The notes beneath the pieces were generated by a model. It worked only from the letters and a program-made list of their open reading frames with translations, searched no databases and had not been told where the DNA came from. Positions 25,328-37,493 of a DNA stretch of 64,000 bases are shown here, piece by piece. The translations under genes and the position numbers were made by a program. The stretch comes from an uncultured Olsenella sp. (GTDB lineage: Bacteria; Actinomycetota; Coriobacteriia; Coriobacteriales; Atopobiaceae), in assembly GCA_949287905.1 (NCBI GenBank), contig CASEHX010000018.1, forward strand, positions 124,001 to 188,000, written 5' to 3'. Position 1 is the first letter of the stretch, and every line of letters starts with the position of its first letter.

Positions 25328-27607
25328 CTATCTCGCCCTCGACACTCGGTCGGTGTAGTCCGCGAGCTCCTCGATCAGGGTGACGAGGCGCCCGTCCGAG
25401 CTCACGGAGCGGCCGTCGATGTAGGTGTTGTAGGTGGTCGCCACGGAGGCCGTGCCGCGCCCCCCGCCACCGGTGGAGTAGGACAGGGGCGCCGACGGGG
25501 ACAGCGCGACGCTCGCGGCGGTCCCCCGCGCGTCGAAGCGCATCGGGACCGACACGCCCGACGCGACGTCGGAGGCTATTGAGCCGGCCATTCCGGAGAC
25601 CTCGGAGCGCACCTCGCGGAAGCCGTCGGTGAGGCCCCTGAGGAGGCCACCCATGATGGCCTCGCCCGCCGGGATGAGGAGCTTGCGGTCGTAGGGTATG
25701 GGGCCCTTGAGGCTGGCGATCGTGTCGGCAATGCCGCCCACCCACGAGAAGAGTCCCTCGGCGGCGCTCTTGAGGCCGCCGAGGAGGCCGTCGATGATCG
25801 AGGTGCCGGCGTCCCACAGGAGCGAGCCGACGTCGCCGAGGGCGCCGAGTATCCTGTCGGGGAGCCCGGTGAAGAAGTCGACGACGCCGTTGACGGCGCT
25901 CTCCAGGGCGTCGGTGATGCCGTTCCAGCAGTCCTCGAGGAAGCTCCCGATGGCGTCCCACGCGCTCTCCCATGCGGAGGAGATGGCGTCGAGCGTGTCG
26001 CTGATGATGTCGGAGACGAGATTGATTGCCGCCTCGACCACGCCCTGGATGCCCTCCCAGATGCTCTCGGCGACCTGCTGGATGCCCTCCCAGACCTCGC
26101 TCCAGTCCCCCTCGATGATGCCGAGGACGGTCGTGATGACGCCGTTGATCACCCCCATGACGGTCTCCACGACAGCCTGGATGGCTGGCCAGACGTAGTT
26201 CCAGACGGTCTGGATCACGTTGAGGGCAGCCTCCACGACCGACTGGATGATCGTCATCGCGTTGGTGACCGTCTCCTGGATCAGCGGCATGTTCGTCTGG
26301 ATGAAAGAGACGATCTGTGTGACGATCGGTATGACCACGGCCGCAATCTGCGTCGCGATGTCAATGACCGTCGTTGCCACTGTCTGGATGATCGGGGCCA
26401 TCGCGGTCATGACCGACATGACCTGCTGCAGGAGCGGGACGAGCAGCGGGGCGAGCTGCGTCGCGGCGTTTAGCACGGACGTGACGATCGCCGAGAGGAC
26501 CGGTGCCATCGCCGACACGACCGTCATGAGCTGCGTAAGTAGCGGCATGAGTGACGGTCCAATCGTCTCGACGAGCGCCTGTACCGCAGGGCCCACAGTC
26601 GAGAACGCCGCCGTGAACGCATCTCCGACCGGGGCGAGGACGGACATGAGACCCTCGAATAGCGCCGGCAGCTGCGAGACACCAGCGGTAAGCTGCGTTA
26701 GGGTGCCAGTGATGAACGGGTTGAGCGCCGTAATGGCCTGCGATCCCACGCCGACGATAGCGGCGTTGAGATTGCCGAGCGCTCCCTCGATGGTCGTGGT
26801 CGAGGTCGCTGCCTGGACTGCCACGTCCTGCATGCCGAGCTTCATCACGGCGGCGTTGAACTCCTCCGCCGAGATCTGCCCCTTCTCCATCGCCTCGCGG
26901 AAGTTGCCCTCGAAGGCGCCCGCGTCCTTCATGGCCTGCTGCAGCGCGCCCGAGGCGCCGGGGATGGCGTCGGTGAGCTGATTCCAGTTCTCGGTGGTGA
27001 GCTTGCCGGCGCCCGCCGTCTGCGTCATGACCATCGCCACGGACTTGAAGGTGTCGGCGTTGCCTCCCGCCACGGCGTTGAGGTTGCCTGCCGCCTCGGC
27101 GAGCTGCGCGTAGTCGCTCACGCCGTTGGCGGCGAGCTGCGCGGTCGCGTTTCGGATGTCCGCGAGGTCGTAGACCGTGGCGTCGGCGTAGGCCTGCGTG
27201 CTCTTGGTGAGCTCGTCGATGGTCCCGGTGTCGATGCCCGCGAAGCTCAGCGTGCTCGCGAACTTCTGCGCACTGTCCGACGCCTCGACCATCTCGGAGC
27301 CGAGCGAGGCCACGTAGTCGATCGCCTTCCCCGCCAGGCTCGCGATGAGGCTGCCGGCGGCGACCGTGAGCGCCGAGACCTTCGAGGTGAAGGCAGATGC
27401 TCCGCTTGCGGCGGCCTTGCACCTGTCGCCGAAGCCCTTTATGCCGTTGCCGCCGCTCTGGGACTTCTTCCCGACCCCCTCGGCGTCGTCCCCGGCCTTC
27501 CTGCACTTGCTCTGGAATCCGGAGAGCGAGCTCTCGGCCTTGGAGACCCCGCTCGTGAAGCCGGAGACGTCGGCGTTGATGTCGGCGGAGAGCGTCATGT
27601 CGGCCAC
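25328..27607 (-). CDS. Tail tape measure protein
   Basis: 759 aa, the longest phage gene, directly after the tail chaperone pair. The N-terminal ~280 residues are helical with the typical SGVSKAESSLSGFQSKCRKA start and an ATAQLAANGVSDYAQLAEAAG region found in TMPs. The middle is a long hydrophobic valine/isoleucine-rich stretch (TVISA-like repeats). Its length sets tail length, and it guides DNA ejection. Confidence 0.9.
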   Translation of the reverse strand: MADMTLSADINADVSGFTSGVSKAESSLSGFQSKCRKAGDDAEGVGKKSQSGGNGIKGFGDRCKAAASGASAFTSKVSALTVAAGSLIASLAGKAIDYVASLGSEMVEASDSAQKFASTLSFAGIDTGTIDELTKSTQAYADATVYDLADIRNATAQLAANGVSDYAQLAEAAGNLNAVAGGNADTFKSVAMVMTQTAGAGKLTTENWNQLTDAIPGASGALQQAMKDAGAFEGNFREAMEKGQISAEEFNAAVMKLGMQDVAVQAATSTTTIEGALGNLNAAIVGVGSQAITALNPFITGTLTQLTAGVSQLPALFEGLMSVLAPVGDAFTAAFSTVGPAVQALVETIGPSLMPLLTQLMTVVSAMAPVLSAIVTSVLNAATQLAPLLVPLLQQVMSVMTAMAPIIQTVATTVIDIATQIAAVVIPIVTQIVSFIQTNMPLIQETVTNAMTIIQSVVEAALNVIQTVWNYVWPAIQAVVETVMGVINGVITTVLGIIEGDWSEVWEGIQQVAESIWEGIQGVVEAAINLVSDIISDTLDAISSAWESAWDAIGSFLEDCWNGITDALESAVNGVVDFFTGLPDRILGALGDVGSLLWDAGTSIIDGLLGGLKSAAEGLFSWVGGIADTIASLKGPIPYDRKLLIPAGEAIMGGLLRGLTDGFREVRSEVSGMAGSIASDVASGVSVPMRFDARGTAASVALSPSAPLSYSTGGGGRGTASVATTYNTYIDGRSVSSDGRLVTLIEELADYTDRVSRAR

Positions 27608-27636: not shown

Positions 27637-28011
27637 CTAGCGCACCTTCAGCCGCTGCGCGGACTCCTCGATGCGCCTGAGCTTCTTCTTGCTGAGCTTC
27701 TTTTTCTTCTCGTCGGCCCTCCTGGGCCTCTTCCGGAAGAGCGGCTGGGGCTTCTTGCCCTTCTTCCTCATCGCGTTGGCCACCGCGTTCTGCACGGCGT
27801 CTCGCACGAGGTTCCCGAGCTCGACCGTGCGGCGCTCGTCCTCCCTGCGAAGGAGCGCGACCTGGGCGGGCGTGAGCGCGCGGAACTGGTCCGGCGTCCA
27901 GCCGAACCGCACCGCCGCCCACGCCCAGTCCCCGTCGGTCGCGTTCGGGCCTAGGTCCGGCCCCGGCTCCCCCGGTCGGAAGTACTCGTACTCGACGGCG
28001 ACTAGCGGAAT
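27637..28011 (-). CDS. Tail chaperone T-part, expressed by -1 frameshift
   Basis: This frame has no good independent start with a ribosome-binding site (GTG at 27912 only) but is in register with a -1 slip at the heptamer 28011-28017. After the slip it adds 124 residues, lysine/arginine-rich at the end (RKKGKKPQPLFRKRPRRADE), to the G-part, for a total of 219 aa. This matches lambda gpGT-type chaperones that load the tape measure protein. Confidence 0.8.
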   Translation of the reverse strand: MPLVAVEYEYFRPGEPGPDLGPNATDGDWAWAAVRFGWTPDQFRALTPAQVALLRREDERRTVELGNLVRDAVQNAVANAMRKKGKKPQPLFRKRPRRADEKKKKLSKKKLRRIEESAQRLKVR

Positions 28012-28295
28012 AAAAAACCGCAGTCGCGGTCGAGCGCCTCCGTGACCTCCTGGTAGGCGGTCATGAGGCCAGCCTCCTCGACGTGCGCCTCGGCGACGGC
28101 GAGCGCCTGCTTGGGGTTCATCCAGTTGGACTCCCCCTCTCGGCGCATGCCGCAGGCCATGACGCTCACGAGCTGGCGGATGGTCGGCATGGATCGGAAC
28201 GTCTGGATCACGGAGCCGCCGATCATGGCCTCGGCGCTCTCGAGGCGCTTGCGGCCGTATGCGAGCTCGTAGGTGGTCCCGTCGTGGTCGAACAT
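28002..28295 (-). CDS. Tail assembly chaperone (gpG-like)
   Basis: 97 aa, short form ending DRDCGFLFR. Located between tail tube and tape measure, the universal place for the tail chaperone pair. Its last codons contain the slippery heptamer T TTT TTA. Contains the QTFRSMPTIRQLVSVMACGMR helix typical of small tail chaperones. Confidence 0.8.
   Translation of the reverse strand: MFDHDGTTYELAYGRKRLESAEAMIGGSVIQTFRSMPTIRQLVSVMACGMRREGESNWMNPKQALAVAEAHVEEAGLMTAYQEVTEALDRDCGFLFR
28011..28017 (-). other. Programmed -1 frameshift site
   Basis: Minus-strand T TTT TTA is in the exact X XXY YYZ register of the upstream frame (GGT TTT TTA), three codons before its stop. The -1 frame stays open to 27637. 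A G+C-rich, structured stretch follows that could act as stimulator. Confidence 0.8.
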
Positions 28296-28311: not shown

Positions 28312-28848
28312 CTACTGAACGGCCGAGTTGCCGCGGTTGGACGGGACCGCGGTCGCGCTCGCGGCGGCGGTCGTGTCGATGTCGAACCACGTGAGCTTGC
28401 CGGTGCCGGTGAGCGAGATCGAGGCGGTCGCGACGTCGTCGGACGGGGCGCCCTGCTCGTAGGAGGTCACGTAGCACGAGCCGCCGCAGATGGGCGTGTA
28501 GTCGTCGTCGTCGTAGACCTGCTTCATGCAGAGCTTCGTGCCGTCCTCGAACGCCTGGCGGATGACCTTGTTGGACTCGGCGTCGCGGATGATCGCGGCG
28601 TCGAGGTCGAGCGACCACGACTTGGTGGACGGCTTGGCCTTCTGCCAGCCGCCCTTCTCGTCCTTCGTGGACACCTCGGAGGTCTCCGCCTCCATCGACA
28701 GGGTGGACTCCTGCTCGCCGTCGACGGCGAGGAGCTTGGTGCCGTCCGCCGAGAAGACGCAGGTGAGGATCTCGTTGCCCGCGACGGCCTCGACGCCGTC
28801 GGAGCCGGTGGCGCAGTACGCGCCGGAATCGAAGTCGGTATCGGCCAT
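28312..28848 (-). CDS. Major tail tube protein
   Basis: 178 aa, beta-rich, with ADGTKLLAVDGEQESTLSME and EVSTKDEKGGWQKAKPSTKSW patterns typical of siphovirus tail tube proteins (TP901-1-like). Lies between the tail completion gene and the tail chaperone pair. Confidence 0.8.
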   Translation of the reverse strand: MADTDFDSGAYCATGSDGVEAVAGNEILTCVFSADGTKLLAVDGEQESTLSMEAETSEVSTKDEKGGWQKAKPSTKSWSLDLDAAIIRDAESNKVIRQAFEDGTKLCMKQVYDDDDYTPICGGSCYVTSYEQGAPSDDVATASISLTGTGKLTWFDIDTTAAASATAVPSNRGNSAVQ

Positions 28849-33130: not shown

Positions 33131-34425
33131 TACTCGAGCTCCTCCCTCCTGATGATTACGTAGTCATCGAACTCGCGGACGATAAACGTGTAGCGGTAGT
33201 TTCCTATCGCCCTTGTCGATACCCCGGCGTCAATCTCGCGCTGCGTTATGTTCGAGTTTATCTCACTGATCACATGGGCATATTCGTCTCTCTGAAGCCA
33301 CACCTGACCGTATCCGCGCACCGACTCGTTTAGTCGGCGTCGCTCCAGATACTCGTCGCTGGTGAGCCTTCCGGTCTTAAAGTGGACGCCGAAGATTCTT
33401 CTGGGCTTCTTGCCGGAGGATTCCTCGGATTTCGGCATGAACCGCTTGGCGACCGTTTCGCGGGACTCGCCGCGCATCGCCGCTAGGTCCGCATCCAGCG
33501 CCTCGTTGACCCATGCGTCCCAGTCGACGGCAGGGTTCACCTCGCAGCGGCAGCGCGGGTGGATGGGCGGGTAGTTGGTGCCGACCTCCATCTCGTCAAA
33601 GCGGAACGGCGTCTCGTGGCTCTGGCGCCCGAGGCTCCGGCACTCCTCGCAGGTGCGCTTGTCGCCGAGCGGATCGATGTAGTACTCCTCGAAGCCCTCG
33701 CGCCGCATCTCGGCGCCCTGCGCCTGGCGCGCGACGTAGGTTCCCTCGGTCTGGATCACGCGCATGATGTTCGAGACGCTCTGGCCCTCGAACCTCCTCT
33801 GCATCTCGCGGCACAGCCTCTGGTAGCTCTCCCCTCGCACGAGAGCCTTCGCGAGGTCTCGCTCGACGTAGGAGGCGACCTTGCGCGCGTCGTCCCAGAT
33901 GCTGTCGCTGTAGCTCTTGCCGTCGCTCCACGCGGTCCCGACGAACTGCCTCACGGCCTCGGAGTCCACCGAGTAGAACGACGAGCCGTAGCCCATCGTC
34001 TCGGCGACGGCGTTCATTGCGTCAGCCGCGTCCTGGGCGAAGTGCGCGTCGAGCCCGTCTGTCGCCTCGGCGGTCGCCTGGGCGAGGTGGTATCGGACCG
34101 AGACTCGCAGCCCCTCCAGGCGGTCGAGCTTGTAGATGCTCTTCCTGATCTCGACCATGTCGGCGAGCTCGGGGTGCTGTCGCGCGAACTCCTCGCAGTT
34201 CTCGATGAGCAGGCGCCTGTCGGCCTCGTCCATCGTCTGCAGCATGTCGCGGTAGCGAAGGACGCCGTCCACGCCGTATCGCTCGTAGTAGTCGGCTATC
34301 TCACGCTCGAGGTCGCGCAGCTGCCTCTCGTAGATGCGGCGGACTCGGCCCTCCATGGCCTTCTCGCGCTTGGCCATACGCTCGTCGGAGCGCCGCTGAC
34401 GGCGCTGCCAGTAGGTGTCGGCCAC
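33130..34425 (-). CDS. MuF-type minor head protein with C-terminal candidate toxin domain
   Basis: 431 aa. Residues ~1-330 are the SPP1 gp7/Mu gpF-like minor head protein; the MuF core ends with KRTCEECRSLGRQSHETPFR and YPPIHPRCRCEVNP. A linker (SEESSGKKPRR) leads to ~95 residues not needed for the head role: GVHFKTGRLTSDEYLERRRL, then EYAHVISEINSN and GNYRYTFIVREFDDYVIIRR. The C-terminal coding stretch has lower G+C (60 of 120 bases at 33181-33300, against 40 of 60 at 33541-33600). MuF proteins with exchangeable C-terminal nuclease-like toxins are a known temperate-phage class. The domain type (a BECR-like RNase is my guess) is not proven. Confidence 0.8.
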   Translation of the reverse strand: MADTYWQRRQRRSDERMAKREKAMEGRVRRIYERQLRDLEREIADYYERYGVDGVLRYRDMLQTMDEADRRLLIENCEEFARQHPELADMVEIRKSIYKLDRLEGLRVSVRYHLAQATAEATDGLDAHFAQDAADAMNAVAETMGYGSSFYSVDSEAVRQFVGTAWSDGKSYSDSIWDDARKVASYVERDLAKALVRGESYQRLCREMQRRFEGQSVSNIMRVIQTEGTYVARQAQGAEMRREGFEEYYIDPLGDKRTCEECRSLGRQSHETPFRFDEMEVGTNYPPIHPRCRCEVNPAVDWDAWVNEALDADLAAMRGESRETVAKRFMPKSEESSGKKPRRIFGVHFKTGRLTSDEYLERRRLNESVRGYGQVWLQRDEYAHVISEINSNITQREIDAGVSTRAIGNYRYTFIVREFDDYVIIRREELE

Positions 34426-35810
34426 TAGGCCTCCTCACCGCCCTCGTCGTCCGGCTTCGCCGTCTCGCGCGGGAACGTGACCGCGGACGCCGCGTCCTCG
34501 GCCTCCGAGGCCTTGCGCGCGATCTCGTCGGCGGGACTCTCCACGCACGAGAGCACGGAGAGCTGCGTCTCCTCGGAGACGATGCCGGAGAGCTGAGCGG
34601 CCACCTGGGCCTCCTCGACGAGGTTCGCCGGGAGGTTGCGCGTGAAGTGCGGCGTGACCGTGAGCCACGCGTCGTCCGGGACCGCCGTGTTCGCGGCGTA
34701 TCCGCACAGGAGGCGCCAGCGCTCGCGCAGGCCGCGGCGGAACTTTCGCTCCTTGACGAGCGCGAGGTCGCTCATGGCCTGCAGGCGGTAGCGGATGGCG
34801 ATGCCGGAGGCGGTCCCGAACTCGTCGTCGGAGATGTCGGCGACCATCGAGAGCGAGTAGATCAGACGCTCGAGGCGGCTCAGGAGGTTCTCCTGCGTGC
34901 CGTCCGCCTCGGGCTTGGAGAGGAACTGCACGAGCACCTTCTCCGCGTCGCTTCCGGCGAGGTTGATGATGCGGCTGTCGCGCAGCGCGGAGAGCGTCTC
35001 CTCGTCGAGCTTGGCACCGAGGACGGAGAGGTAGGCGTCGGCGTAGTAGTCGACGTCGTTGGCCTTCTCGCTGAGCGCGTCCTCGTATGCCTCGATGAGG
35101 CTCTCGACGCCCTCGAAGAGGCCGCGCCGCTCCTCGTTCTCGACGTACTCGACCACGGGTACGCCGGGAAACCCGTGTGGCGCCGGGTCTCCGAAGCGGA
35201 TGCCGCCGCGGTCCTCGAAGGGAACCTCCTCGGTCGGCGTGTAGAGCGTGCCGCGAAGGCAGTCGGCCTCGCCGTCGAAGCGGTTGGTGTCCAGGAAGAA
35301 GCGGGCGGCGTACATCGGCCGGCGGGCGACCGTGTCGTCGAACACCATGAGGCAGCCCATGGGCGACGCAGCGCTCGACCTCGGCGTCGCGTCTGAGTCT
35401 CGCCACATCACCTCGTAGGCGCTGCCGTAGATGTCGCAGGTCTTGGACAGCTCCGCGTCGAGGTCGTCGGAGCCGACCACCGCGCCCCAGTCGTCGAGCC
35501 ACGCGACGGCCGCGTCGGACCCCGGCGTGCCGTCGCCGCTGAGGCGGACCGGGACGCCAAGGAAGTAGCCGACCATGGTGTCGACGATCTGGCGCTGGAA
35601 GTTCGTCACGAGCCGGTTGTCGGGCTTGTACTTAGCCTTCGGGGGCTTCGCGAGGATCGGGTGGTTGCCCTCGTACGCGTCGCGGAGATCGTGGAGCCTG
35701 TCGAGCTGGCGGTTTCGGTAGTCCGCGAGGATCTCGCCGAGCAGCCGCGCGGTCATCTCCGTGCCCGCCGGGAGGCGGTAGCCGAGGTGCGGCTCGTAGT
35801 ACTGCTGCAT
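34425..35810 (-). CDS. Phage portal protein (SPP1-like)
   Basis: 461 aa from the ATG at 35810, sharing one base with the TerL stop. Landmarks: YKPDNRLVTNFQRQIVDTMV near the N-terminus, AYEVMWRD, SGIAIRYRLQAMSDLALVKE late. These are typical of the SPP1 gp6 portal family. Forms the dodecameric DNA gateway and docks TerL and the adaptor. The longer open frame upstream overlaps TerL in another register and is rejected. Confidence 0.9.
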   Translation of the reverse strand: MQQYYEPHLGYRLPAGTEMTARLLGEILADYRNRQLDRLHDLRDAYEGNHPILAKPPKAKYKPDNRLVTNFQRQIVDTMVGYFLGVPVRLSGDGTPGSDAAVAWLDDWGAVVGSDDLDAELSKTCDIYGSAYEVMWRDSDATPRSSAASPMGCLMVFDDTVARRPMYAARFFLDTNRFDGEADCLRGTLYTPTEEVPFEDRGGIRFGDPAPHGFPGVPVVEYVENEERRGLFEGVESLIEAYEDALSEKANDVDYYADAYLSVLGAKLDEETLSALRDSRIINLAGSDAEKVLVQFLSKPEADGTQENLLSRLERLIYSLSMVADISDDEFGTASGIAIRYRLQAMSDLALVKERKFRRGLRERWRLLCGYAANTAVPDDAWLTVTPHFTRNLPANLVEEAQVAAQLSGIVSEETQLSVLSCVESPADEIARKASEAEDAASAVTFPRETAKPDDEGGEEA

Positions 35811-37102
35811 CAGATGCCCCCCTTGAAGAGACGGACGGTGACGCCGGAGCCTCGCATGCGGATCGCGCACGCGAGGCTGTCGGGCGCGTCGTCGTGCGGC
35901 GCGCCGCTCGTGTAGTCGCAGACCTCGTCCCAGTAGGCGCAGCACGCCCCGCTCGCGTCGTCGAGGCGACGGAGGAGCGGCCACGCGCCGCGGGCGTGGG
36001 TCGAGATCTTGATGTGCTTGTTCTGGTGCTCCTGGTAGGTCTCCACCGGCAGGCCGCGCGCCCGGAAGGCCTCGGCCAGGTAGCCCTTGTCGGCGTTGCG
36101 CTCCATGCGCAGCGTCCCGAGCCTGAGACGGTCGTGCAGCTCGCAGATGGCGTCCATGCAGCGGTCCACGTGCGTCTCGGGCCACAGCGACCCGTGCACG
36201 TACGGCACGTCGTCGTGCCACGCTATGCAGGTGACCGCGGTGCCGTCCTCGCCGCCGTAGGCCGCGTCGACGTGCATCTCGCCGTCCGCCAGAAGCGACG
36301 GGTCCGAGAAGGACTCGGGCTCGCCCTCGAAGATCGCGCCCTCGGCCGCGACGTGGCGCAGCTCGTAGTTCGCCGCGAAGAGCGAGCGCGTCATGGACCT
36401 CTGCAGCGACGAGACCTCGTCGGCGGACAGCAGGCCGGTGTCGCGCCACGTCCAGCGCTCGGGCTCGGGCATGAGGTCGAAGGCGTCGCCCCTGTGCCAC
36501 GGCGTGCCGGTGTTGACGATGCGGCCGCCCGGGTTGCGGACGTTCTGCAGCTCCATGTAGACGCCGCGCGTGCGCTCGCGCTCGGCCCGGCTCGCCCGGT
36601 CGCGGATGGTGACGATGTCGTCGGTGTAGACGCGGTCGAAGTGCTTGCCGGTGAGCGAGCCGCCGATGCCGTAGCCGGATACCTGAGGCTCGCCCGAGAC
36701 GTTGCACGCGAGGTCCGTGGAGACGCTCGTCGAGGTGGCCTCTGTGACGCGCGCGGCGCGCCCGTAGATCGTCTCGGAGACCATCGCCGAGACGTCGCTC
36801 TCGAGCATCGCCGAGACCGACTCCATGACGCTCTCGACGTCGTCGGAGGCCTTGCGCAGGAAGCCGCAGGTGACGGAGGGCTGCGTGAGCGCCACGAGCC
36901 ACAGCGCGACCTTGAGACACGTCGTCTTGTACGAGCCTCGGTGCGCCTGCAGCGTCATGTCACCGCGCCCGAAGGCTAGCTCGCGGATCCATCGGTCGTG
37001 CAGGCCCTCGACGAGCCTGTCGTAGCCCATCTCGCGGGCCAGCCTCACGGGGTGGTTCCGGACGAGCGTGGCGAGAGCGCGGCGGTCGTCAGCCGTCGCC
37101 AT
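35810..37102 (-). CDS. Terminase large subunit
   Basis: 430 aa from the ATG at 37102, overlapping TerS by 14 bases. ATPase part: a Walker-A-like HRGSYKTT near residue 53, Walker B RVYTDDIV in the middle, then GRIVNTGTPWHRGDAF. The nuclease part starts near MHVDAAYGGEDGTA and ends with HDDAPDSLACA acidic residues. Packages phage DNA through the portal. Confidence 0.9.
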   Translation of the reverse strand: MATADDRRALATLVRNHPVRLAREMGYDRLVEGLHDRWIRELAFGRGDMTLQAHRGSYKTTCLKVALWLVALTQPSVTCGFLRKASDDVESVMESVSAMLESDVSAMVSETIYGRAARVTEATSTSVSTDLACNVSGEPQVSGYGIGGSLTGKHFDRVYTDDIVTIRDRASRAERERTRGVYMELQNVRNPGGRIVNTGTPWHRGDAFDLMPEPERWTWRDTGLLSADEVSSLQRSMTRSLFAANYELRHVAAEGAIFEGEPESFSDPSLLADGEMHVDAAYGGEDGTAVTCIAWHDDVPYVHGSLWPETHVDRCMDAICELHDRLRLGTLRMERNADKGYLAEAFRARGLPVETYQEHQNKHIKISTHARGAWPLLRRLDDASGACCAYWDEVCDYTSGAPHDDAPDSLACAIRMRGSGVTVRLFKGGI

Positions 37103-37493
37103 CCGAGGCCTCGTCGCGGACCTCGTCGAGCATGGCCATGAACGCGTCGGCGGCCTCCCTCGTCGGGGCCTTGACCTCCACCGACTGGCTCGGCCGCTGG
37201 CCGCTCGTGTCACGCACGAATTCGGCGGCTCGCACGTCGCCTCCCATCGCGTCGCGGATCATCCGCATCGCGATCGCCTCGCCCACGGTCATGTTCTTGC
37301 CCTCGGCCCCCTCCAGGGTGCCGAAGCTCGTCATGCCGCCGGGCTTCAGGGGCATGTCGAGCAGCTCCCGGAGCGTCTCGCGCATGTCGCGCTTGGCGCG
37401 GCGCGCCCTGCCGGAGGCCTTGCCTCCCCTGCGGCCCTTGGCGCGCGCCTCCTCGGTGGTCCTGACGGGCCTCAGGTTGTCGGTTCCCGCCAT
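37089..37493 (-). CDS. Terminase small subunit
   Basis: 134 aa. Basic N-terminus (RRGGKASGRARRAKRDMRET), a conserved GGMTSFGTLEGAEGKNMTVG core and an acidic C-terminal tail, as in DUF5681-type small terminases. First gene of the late operon, directly upstream of TerL. Binds the packaging site. Confidence 0.75.
   Translation of the reverse strand: MAGTDNLRPVRTTEEARAKGRRGGKASGRARRAKRDMRETLRELLDMPLKPGGMTSFGTLEGAEGKNMTVGEAIAMRMIRDAMGGDVRAAEFVRDTSGQRPSQSVEVKAPTREAADAFMAMLDEVRDEASDGDG

Follow-up and report, generated by a model that had tools for sequence, protein, structure and literature searches.

The slippery sequence of the phage lambda G/GT pair is GGGAAAG. A −1 shift near the end of lambda G yields gpG and gpGT, a short and an extended chaperone that connect the tail tube protein with the tape measure protein (PMC5009743). 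For phage SPP1, a −1 shift has been predicted at UUUUUUC, and the resulting fusion, gp17.5*, has the same N-terminus as the shorter gp17.5 (PMC6316719). Potential −1 fusions ahead of the tape measure gene have likewise been described for the Streptococcus thermophilus phages TP-J34 (orf41/orf42) and TP-778L (orf38/orf39) (PMC3952083), and two phage tail chaperone genes analyzed in a reporter study gave 6 and 7% shifting (PMC3711429). When the open-licence literature was searched for a tail-assembly frameshift at TTTTTTC in a phage, only the SPP1 case was returned; a search for tail frameshifts in Olsenella prophages gave a single paper, on enterococci. One paper was considered as a TTTTTTA precedent in a phage and was set aside, since the match falls within a sequencing adapter and the slippery site described there is GGGAAAG, in a capsid gene.

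Results

A probable −1 slip site joins two reading frames in the tail region of an actinobacterial prophage

We analyzed a 64-kb stretch of DNA (the window) from an actinobacterium, in which a prophage carries a pair of reading frames, here called G and T, on the minus strand. The features of the pair and its neighbors are as follows.

28312 to 28848, minus strand: major tail (tube) protein, upstream neighbor (phrog_1407, E 7.5e-35; PF06199, E 2.2e-21)
28002 to 28295, minus strand: G, predicted short tail assembly chaperone, 97 aa, frame 0 (ORF list; phrog_2115)
28011 to 28017, minus strand: slippery heptamer T TTT TTA (sequence; kept in relatives)
27637 to 28011, minus strand: T extension, 124 codons plus stop, frame −1 (ORF reading; phrog_7423)
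25328 to 27607, minus strand: tape measure protein, downstream neighbor (phrog_58, E 1.1e-84; PF20155, E 2.3e-32)

A GGGAGG ribosome-binding sequence lies immediately 5′ of the G ATG, and the 3′ end of the gene reads ...GAC TGC GGT TTT TTA TTC CGC TAG. The heptamer at 28017-28011 stands in the X XXY YYZ register, with TTA as the third codon ahead of the G stop. A −1 step at this site leads into 124 open codons and a stop ending at 27637, giving a fusion of 219 aa; the first T codon after the slip, ATT, re-reads the final heptamer base. An earlier note on this DNA had described the heptamer as being in exact register three codons before the stop and had given the same codon count, end point, and fusion length, all of which our reading of the ORFs bears out. 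Because frame −1 is also free of stops backwards across all of G (the previous stop precedes the G start), at 66% G+C, its openness alone is weak evidence.

By profile matches, the pair has the major tail protein gene on one side and the tape measure gene on the other, which is the slot of the lambda-type G/GT pair. The surrounding late region encodes an SPP1-type portal (PF05133), terminase, scaffold, capsid, and connector proteins. The portal match is confined to residues 383 to 825 of an 831-aa ORF (34425-36920, minus strand), whose first part overlaps, in another frame, the terminase large subunit ORF (35810-37213, minus strand); the listed start of the 831-aa ORF is thus probably far too early. 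Elsewhere in the window, a tRNA-Leu gene (anticodon tag) lies at 58540-58454 on the minus strand.

G matched phrog_2115, annotated as "tail protein," at E 1.6e-8, as did all 14 of the 14 aligned family members. T matched phrog_7423, a family with no function assigned, at E 3.3e-15, and Phage_TAC_6 (PF09550) at E 0.005 and 17.7 bits, under the Pfam cut-off of 23.4; within the family, 4 of 14 members matched Phage_TAC_6 at E ≤ 0.1, the best at 0.00034. Neither the G nor the T profile found a relative among PDB sequences. The predicted G model had a pLDDT of 92.5, and searches with it gave nothing at E ≤ 0.001 in the PDB or viral structure sets. Its best viral Foldseek match, a protein named tail assembly chaperone, had E 0.012, probability 1.00, and TMq 0.63. 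The top row of a second look at the PDB was 2OB9, the HK97 tail assembly chaperone (Z 4.9, rmsd 4.0 over 80 of 97 residues), at 8% identity and with a score under the shared-fold level; Foldseek alone gave this pair E 1.9. These weak matches to a predicted model agree with assignment as a tail chaperone and do not prove the fold.

The heptamer is conserved in relatives from two phyla

TTTTTTA occurs once on the two strands of the 64-kb window, as the G/T heptamer itself, and the 18-mer around it has one copy in the 1.985-Mb assembly. From codon use in the window (TTT 3.16 and TTA 0.56 per thousand; 41 ORFs, 17,734 codons), nnT TTT TTA is expected at ∼2.5e-7 per codon. The host assembly encodes tRNA-Phe(GAA) and tRNA-Leu(UAA). 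The decisive point for a frameshift is conservation in relatives.

A search with G gave matches in 8 of 200 genomes, its own counted, and seven of these carry T TTT TT[A/C] in register ahead of the stop with T in frame −1. At the eighth locus (L009, genome G054), G is incomplete and contains an ambiguous base, and T is absent; the probable cause is decay of the prophage to a remnant or a fault in the assembly. As a single sequence, G had no match in the viral_contigs or phages collection. Further loci were selected through the peptide RDC[GA]F[LF]F, a criterion that sets the amino acids and leaves the codons free. The heptamer was kept in register, with T in frame −1, in 9 of 9 such loci in genome_contigs (Lancefieldella, Olsenella, Slackia, Thermophilibacter, Collinsella, and others) and in 9 of 9 in viral_contigs, the latter being partly the same as the former. 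A profile of T alone, from which the heptamer peptide was left out, was run against 395 genomes of the order and matched 11. Each of these carries the heptamer in register a short distance ahead of the G stop, with T in frame −1 (TTTTTTA in nine, TTTTTTC in two). Of the 11 matches, six are the loci from which the profile was built, one (genome G010) is almost identical to the window, and four were new to the profile.

Among phage records, 19 contain a homologue of the window T (17 Streptococcus and 2 Listeria), and T TTT TT[C/G] is kept in register with T in frame −1 in 18 of them: TTTTTTC in 16 of the 17 Streptococcus records, S. thermophilus phages P738 and D4446 included, and TTTTTTG in both Listeria records. 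The last heptamer base thus varies among A, C, and G in the relatives, and the six T are retained; this holds even in the Listeria records, where the peptide at the junction changes from DC to DM. The exception is Streptococcus phage Taco (L038, 1474-1520), which reads CCT TTT TCT TCC TAG, with five T and with T in frame +1. Either the Taco sequence is in error or another kind of shift operates there, for example of the −2 type, which has been reported for phage 9g at CCCUUUUUUU (PMC4276943). A T of the window family is absent from VroomVroom, LC001, P965, iA2, Arian, and Rasovi, six phages whose tape measure proteins are related. At the presumed G end of four of these six, none has six T; VroomVroom has GGGAAAC. 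The six-T heptamer thus tracks the chaperone family and not the tape measure type.

Taken together, the heptamer, its register, the −1 frame, the gene slot, and the homology of T are confirmed and conserved, in agreement with the earlier note's proposal of a −1 frameshift in a tail chaperone pair.

Coding constraint changes frame at the heptamer

The window has a close copy in locus L010 (95% identity in G), which allowed codon differences to be counted on either side of the junction. In G, 15 codons differ in frame 0, 10 synonymously and 5 nonsynonymously. In T, 12 codons differ in frame −1, 10 synonymously and 2 nonsynonymously; the remaining two frames give synonymous/nonsynonymous counts of 0/12 and 3/9. 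This substitution pattern indicates that the coding frame switches at the heptamer and that both frames are under purifying selection.

For comparison of junctions, we assembled 25 loci, made up of 14 non-duplicate genome and viral-contig loci, 10 of the 16 heptamer-bearing Streptococcus records, and 1 of the 2 Listeria records, with duplicates (identical contigs or junctions) judged by eye. In nine of the 25, the overlap of frames 0 and −1 is limited to 25 nt at the heptamer, and any shift in these nine loci is therefore pinned to it.

In the window, an independent start would not yield the whole T domain

Alternatively, T could be translated alone from an internal start, perhaps coupled to the end of G. 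A GTG is indeed present at 27912, the first ATG, GTG, or TTG in frame −1 of the window after the previous stop. It corresponds to T residue 33, numbered from the junction proline, and is preceded by a Shine-Dalgarno match of only 3/6. The codon lies downstream of the conserved residues A29 and A32 and within a predicted helix spanning residues 25 to 35 (mean pLDDT 83 to 87 in the helix blocks, in a T model that averages only 74 as a whole), so initiation there would not yield the whole T domain, and an independent T start was rejected for the window. Relatives offer possible starts in some cases: 8 of the 25 loci have an ATG, GTG, or TTG that follows the heptamer and precedes the first conserved residue of T, at differing positions, and in 4 the sole candidate is a TTG 6 nt ahead of the heptamer. 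In the other 13, no start precedes the conserved T domain. Independent initiation thus cannot be the general mode, since these 13 loci lack a start and the others have theirs at non-constant positions. Translation from GTG 27912 would also leave the conservation of the heptamer unexplained, and we regard it as very improbable.

The earlier note had stated that T lacks a convincing start of its own, which the position of GTG 27912 corroborates, and that annotation would miss the fusion. The latter holds as well, a joined G-T gene being annotated in none of the 17 Streptococcus phage records with a T homologue. In these records, the annotated T begins 5′ of the heptamer or at an internal start, or it is split; in two actinophage records belonging to other chaperone families, the gene is annotated as joined. 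We also observed that several Streptococcus prophage records (L034, L040, and L078 to L085) name the product in the major tail protein slot "LmaA-like protein," after a Listeria antigen.

No stimulatory element is shared among the loci

We examined 19 loci for elements that might stimulate shifting. No downstream RNA structure was conserved over them, and no Shine-Dalgarno-like site 5′ of the heptamer was shared at constant spacing, the best such site in the window being 25 nt ahead of the heptamer. Compared with shuffles, the downstream region of the window gave z values of +1.0 over 60 nt and −1.3 over 90 nt and is not clearly more stable. Values of z ≤ −2 over 90 nt were obtained for three of the 19 loci (L014, −4.85; L012, −5.00; L024, −2.04), the window not among them. 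L014 and L012, both with TTTTTTC, have strong hairpins 3′ of the slip site, unlike the TTTTTTA loci; L022, a third TTTTTTC locus, has no strong hairpin (z −1.2).

On the 5′ side, a terminator-like hairpin abuts the T run of the window (28031-28016, minus strand), within the late operon. Its full pairing (6 of 6 pairs) is found in 3 of the 19 loci only, two of which are near copies, with 2 to 5 pairs in the others, and it was rejected as a conserved element. A terminator-like hairpin followed by a T run is a setting in which RNA polymerase slippage can occur. The hairpin and the six consecutive T could accordingly be taken to mean that polymerase slips on the run, giving some mRNAs with one base more or two bases fewer. 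The run of six is, however, below the length that a published survey gives for transcriptional realignment (Tn, n > 8; PMC3711429), the hairpin is not conserved, and the conserved codon phase NNT TTT TTZ suits tandem tRNA slippage and is unneeded for polymerase; slippage of this kind has very little probability as the source of the fusion. That the two ORFs reflect a sequencing error, or a gene broken by a point frameshift as the prophage decays, is least probable of all: homopolymer runs are error-prone and the relative L009 has an incomplete G without T, but this reading is already contradicted, since other genomes of the order, as well as phages of Streptococcus and Listeria, have the arrangement at this same position, and both frames are under purifying selection.

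Discussion

The sequence evidence makes it very probable that the prophage produces two tail assembly chaperones, G and GT, from one start by means of a −1 slip. Most ribosomes would terminate at the TAG at 28002 and release the 97-aa G. A minority, with tRNA-Phe and tRNA-Leu on UUU UUA, would slip back by one base, the tRNAs re-pairing with UUU UUU, and would then read 124 further codons to give the 219-aa GT. If roles are as in lambda, the G part would bind the tape measure protein and the T part would recruit the tail tube protein; the slip would set the G:GT ratio, which would matter for tail assembly. That the fusion is made, in what amount relative to G, and that the proteins act as chaperones we infer from the sequences and from the lambda analogy.

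More speculatively, and as a reading that is less likely than not, we suggest that a bare U UUU UUZ (Z being A, C, or G) is kept across phages of Actinomycetota and Bacillota without a conserved stimulator. The G:GT ratio might then be set mainly by the heptamer, the rare TTA in high-GC hosts, and the close stop, and strong downstream hairpins would have been taken up by some lineages alone (the Thermophilibacter and Slackia TTTTTTC loci, with z near −5).

The pair provides an example, open to experimental test, of a six-U frameshift site that is conserved in phages of two phyla. The data suggest that phrog_7423 represents the T portion of tail chaperones; current annotation of such phages splits or truncates one gene product. 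Understanding of the mechanism itself is unchanged by this case.

Among described systems, lambda G/GT is the prototype, and the window pair resembles it in gene slot, in a predicted −1 shift near the end of the first gene, and in a long −1 extension. The slippery sequences differ, GGGAAAG in lambda and T TTT TTA in the window. TP-J34 and TP-778L share the position of the gene pair with the window, as far as their published descriptions go. HIV-1 gag-pol has the identical heptamer, U UUU UUA, in unrelated genes, and uses a downstream stem-loop (PMC4373837), of which none is evident in the window. The nearest published case is SPP1 gp17.5/gp17.5*, a chaperone pair with a heptamer of the same six-U class, and the window prophage has an SPP1-type portal. 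By its description, the SPP1 site has C as the last heptamer base and 112 residues before the shift, compared with A and 95 residues in the window. Set beside these systems, the G/T pair is a well-supported addition to a known class and is ordinary in kind.
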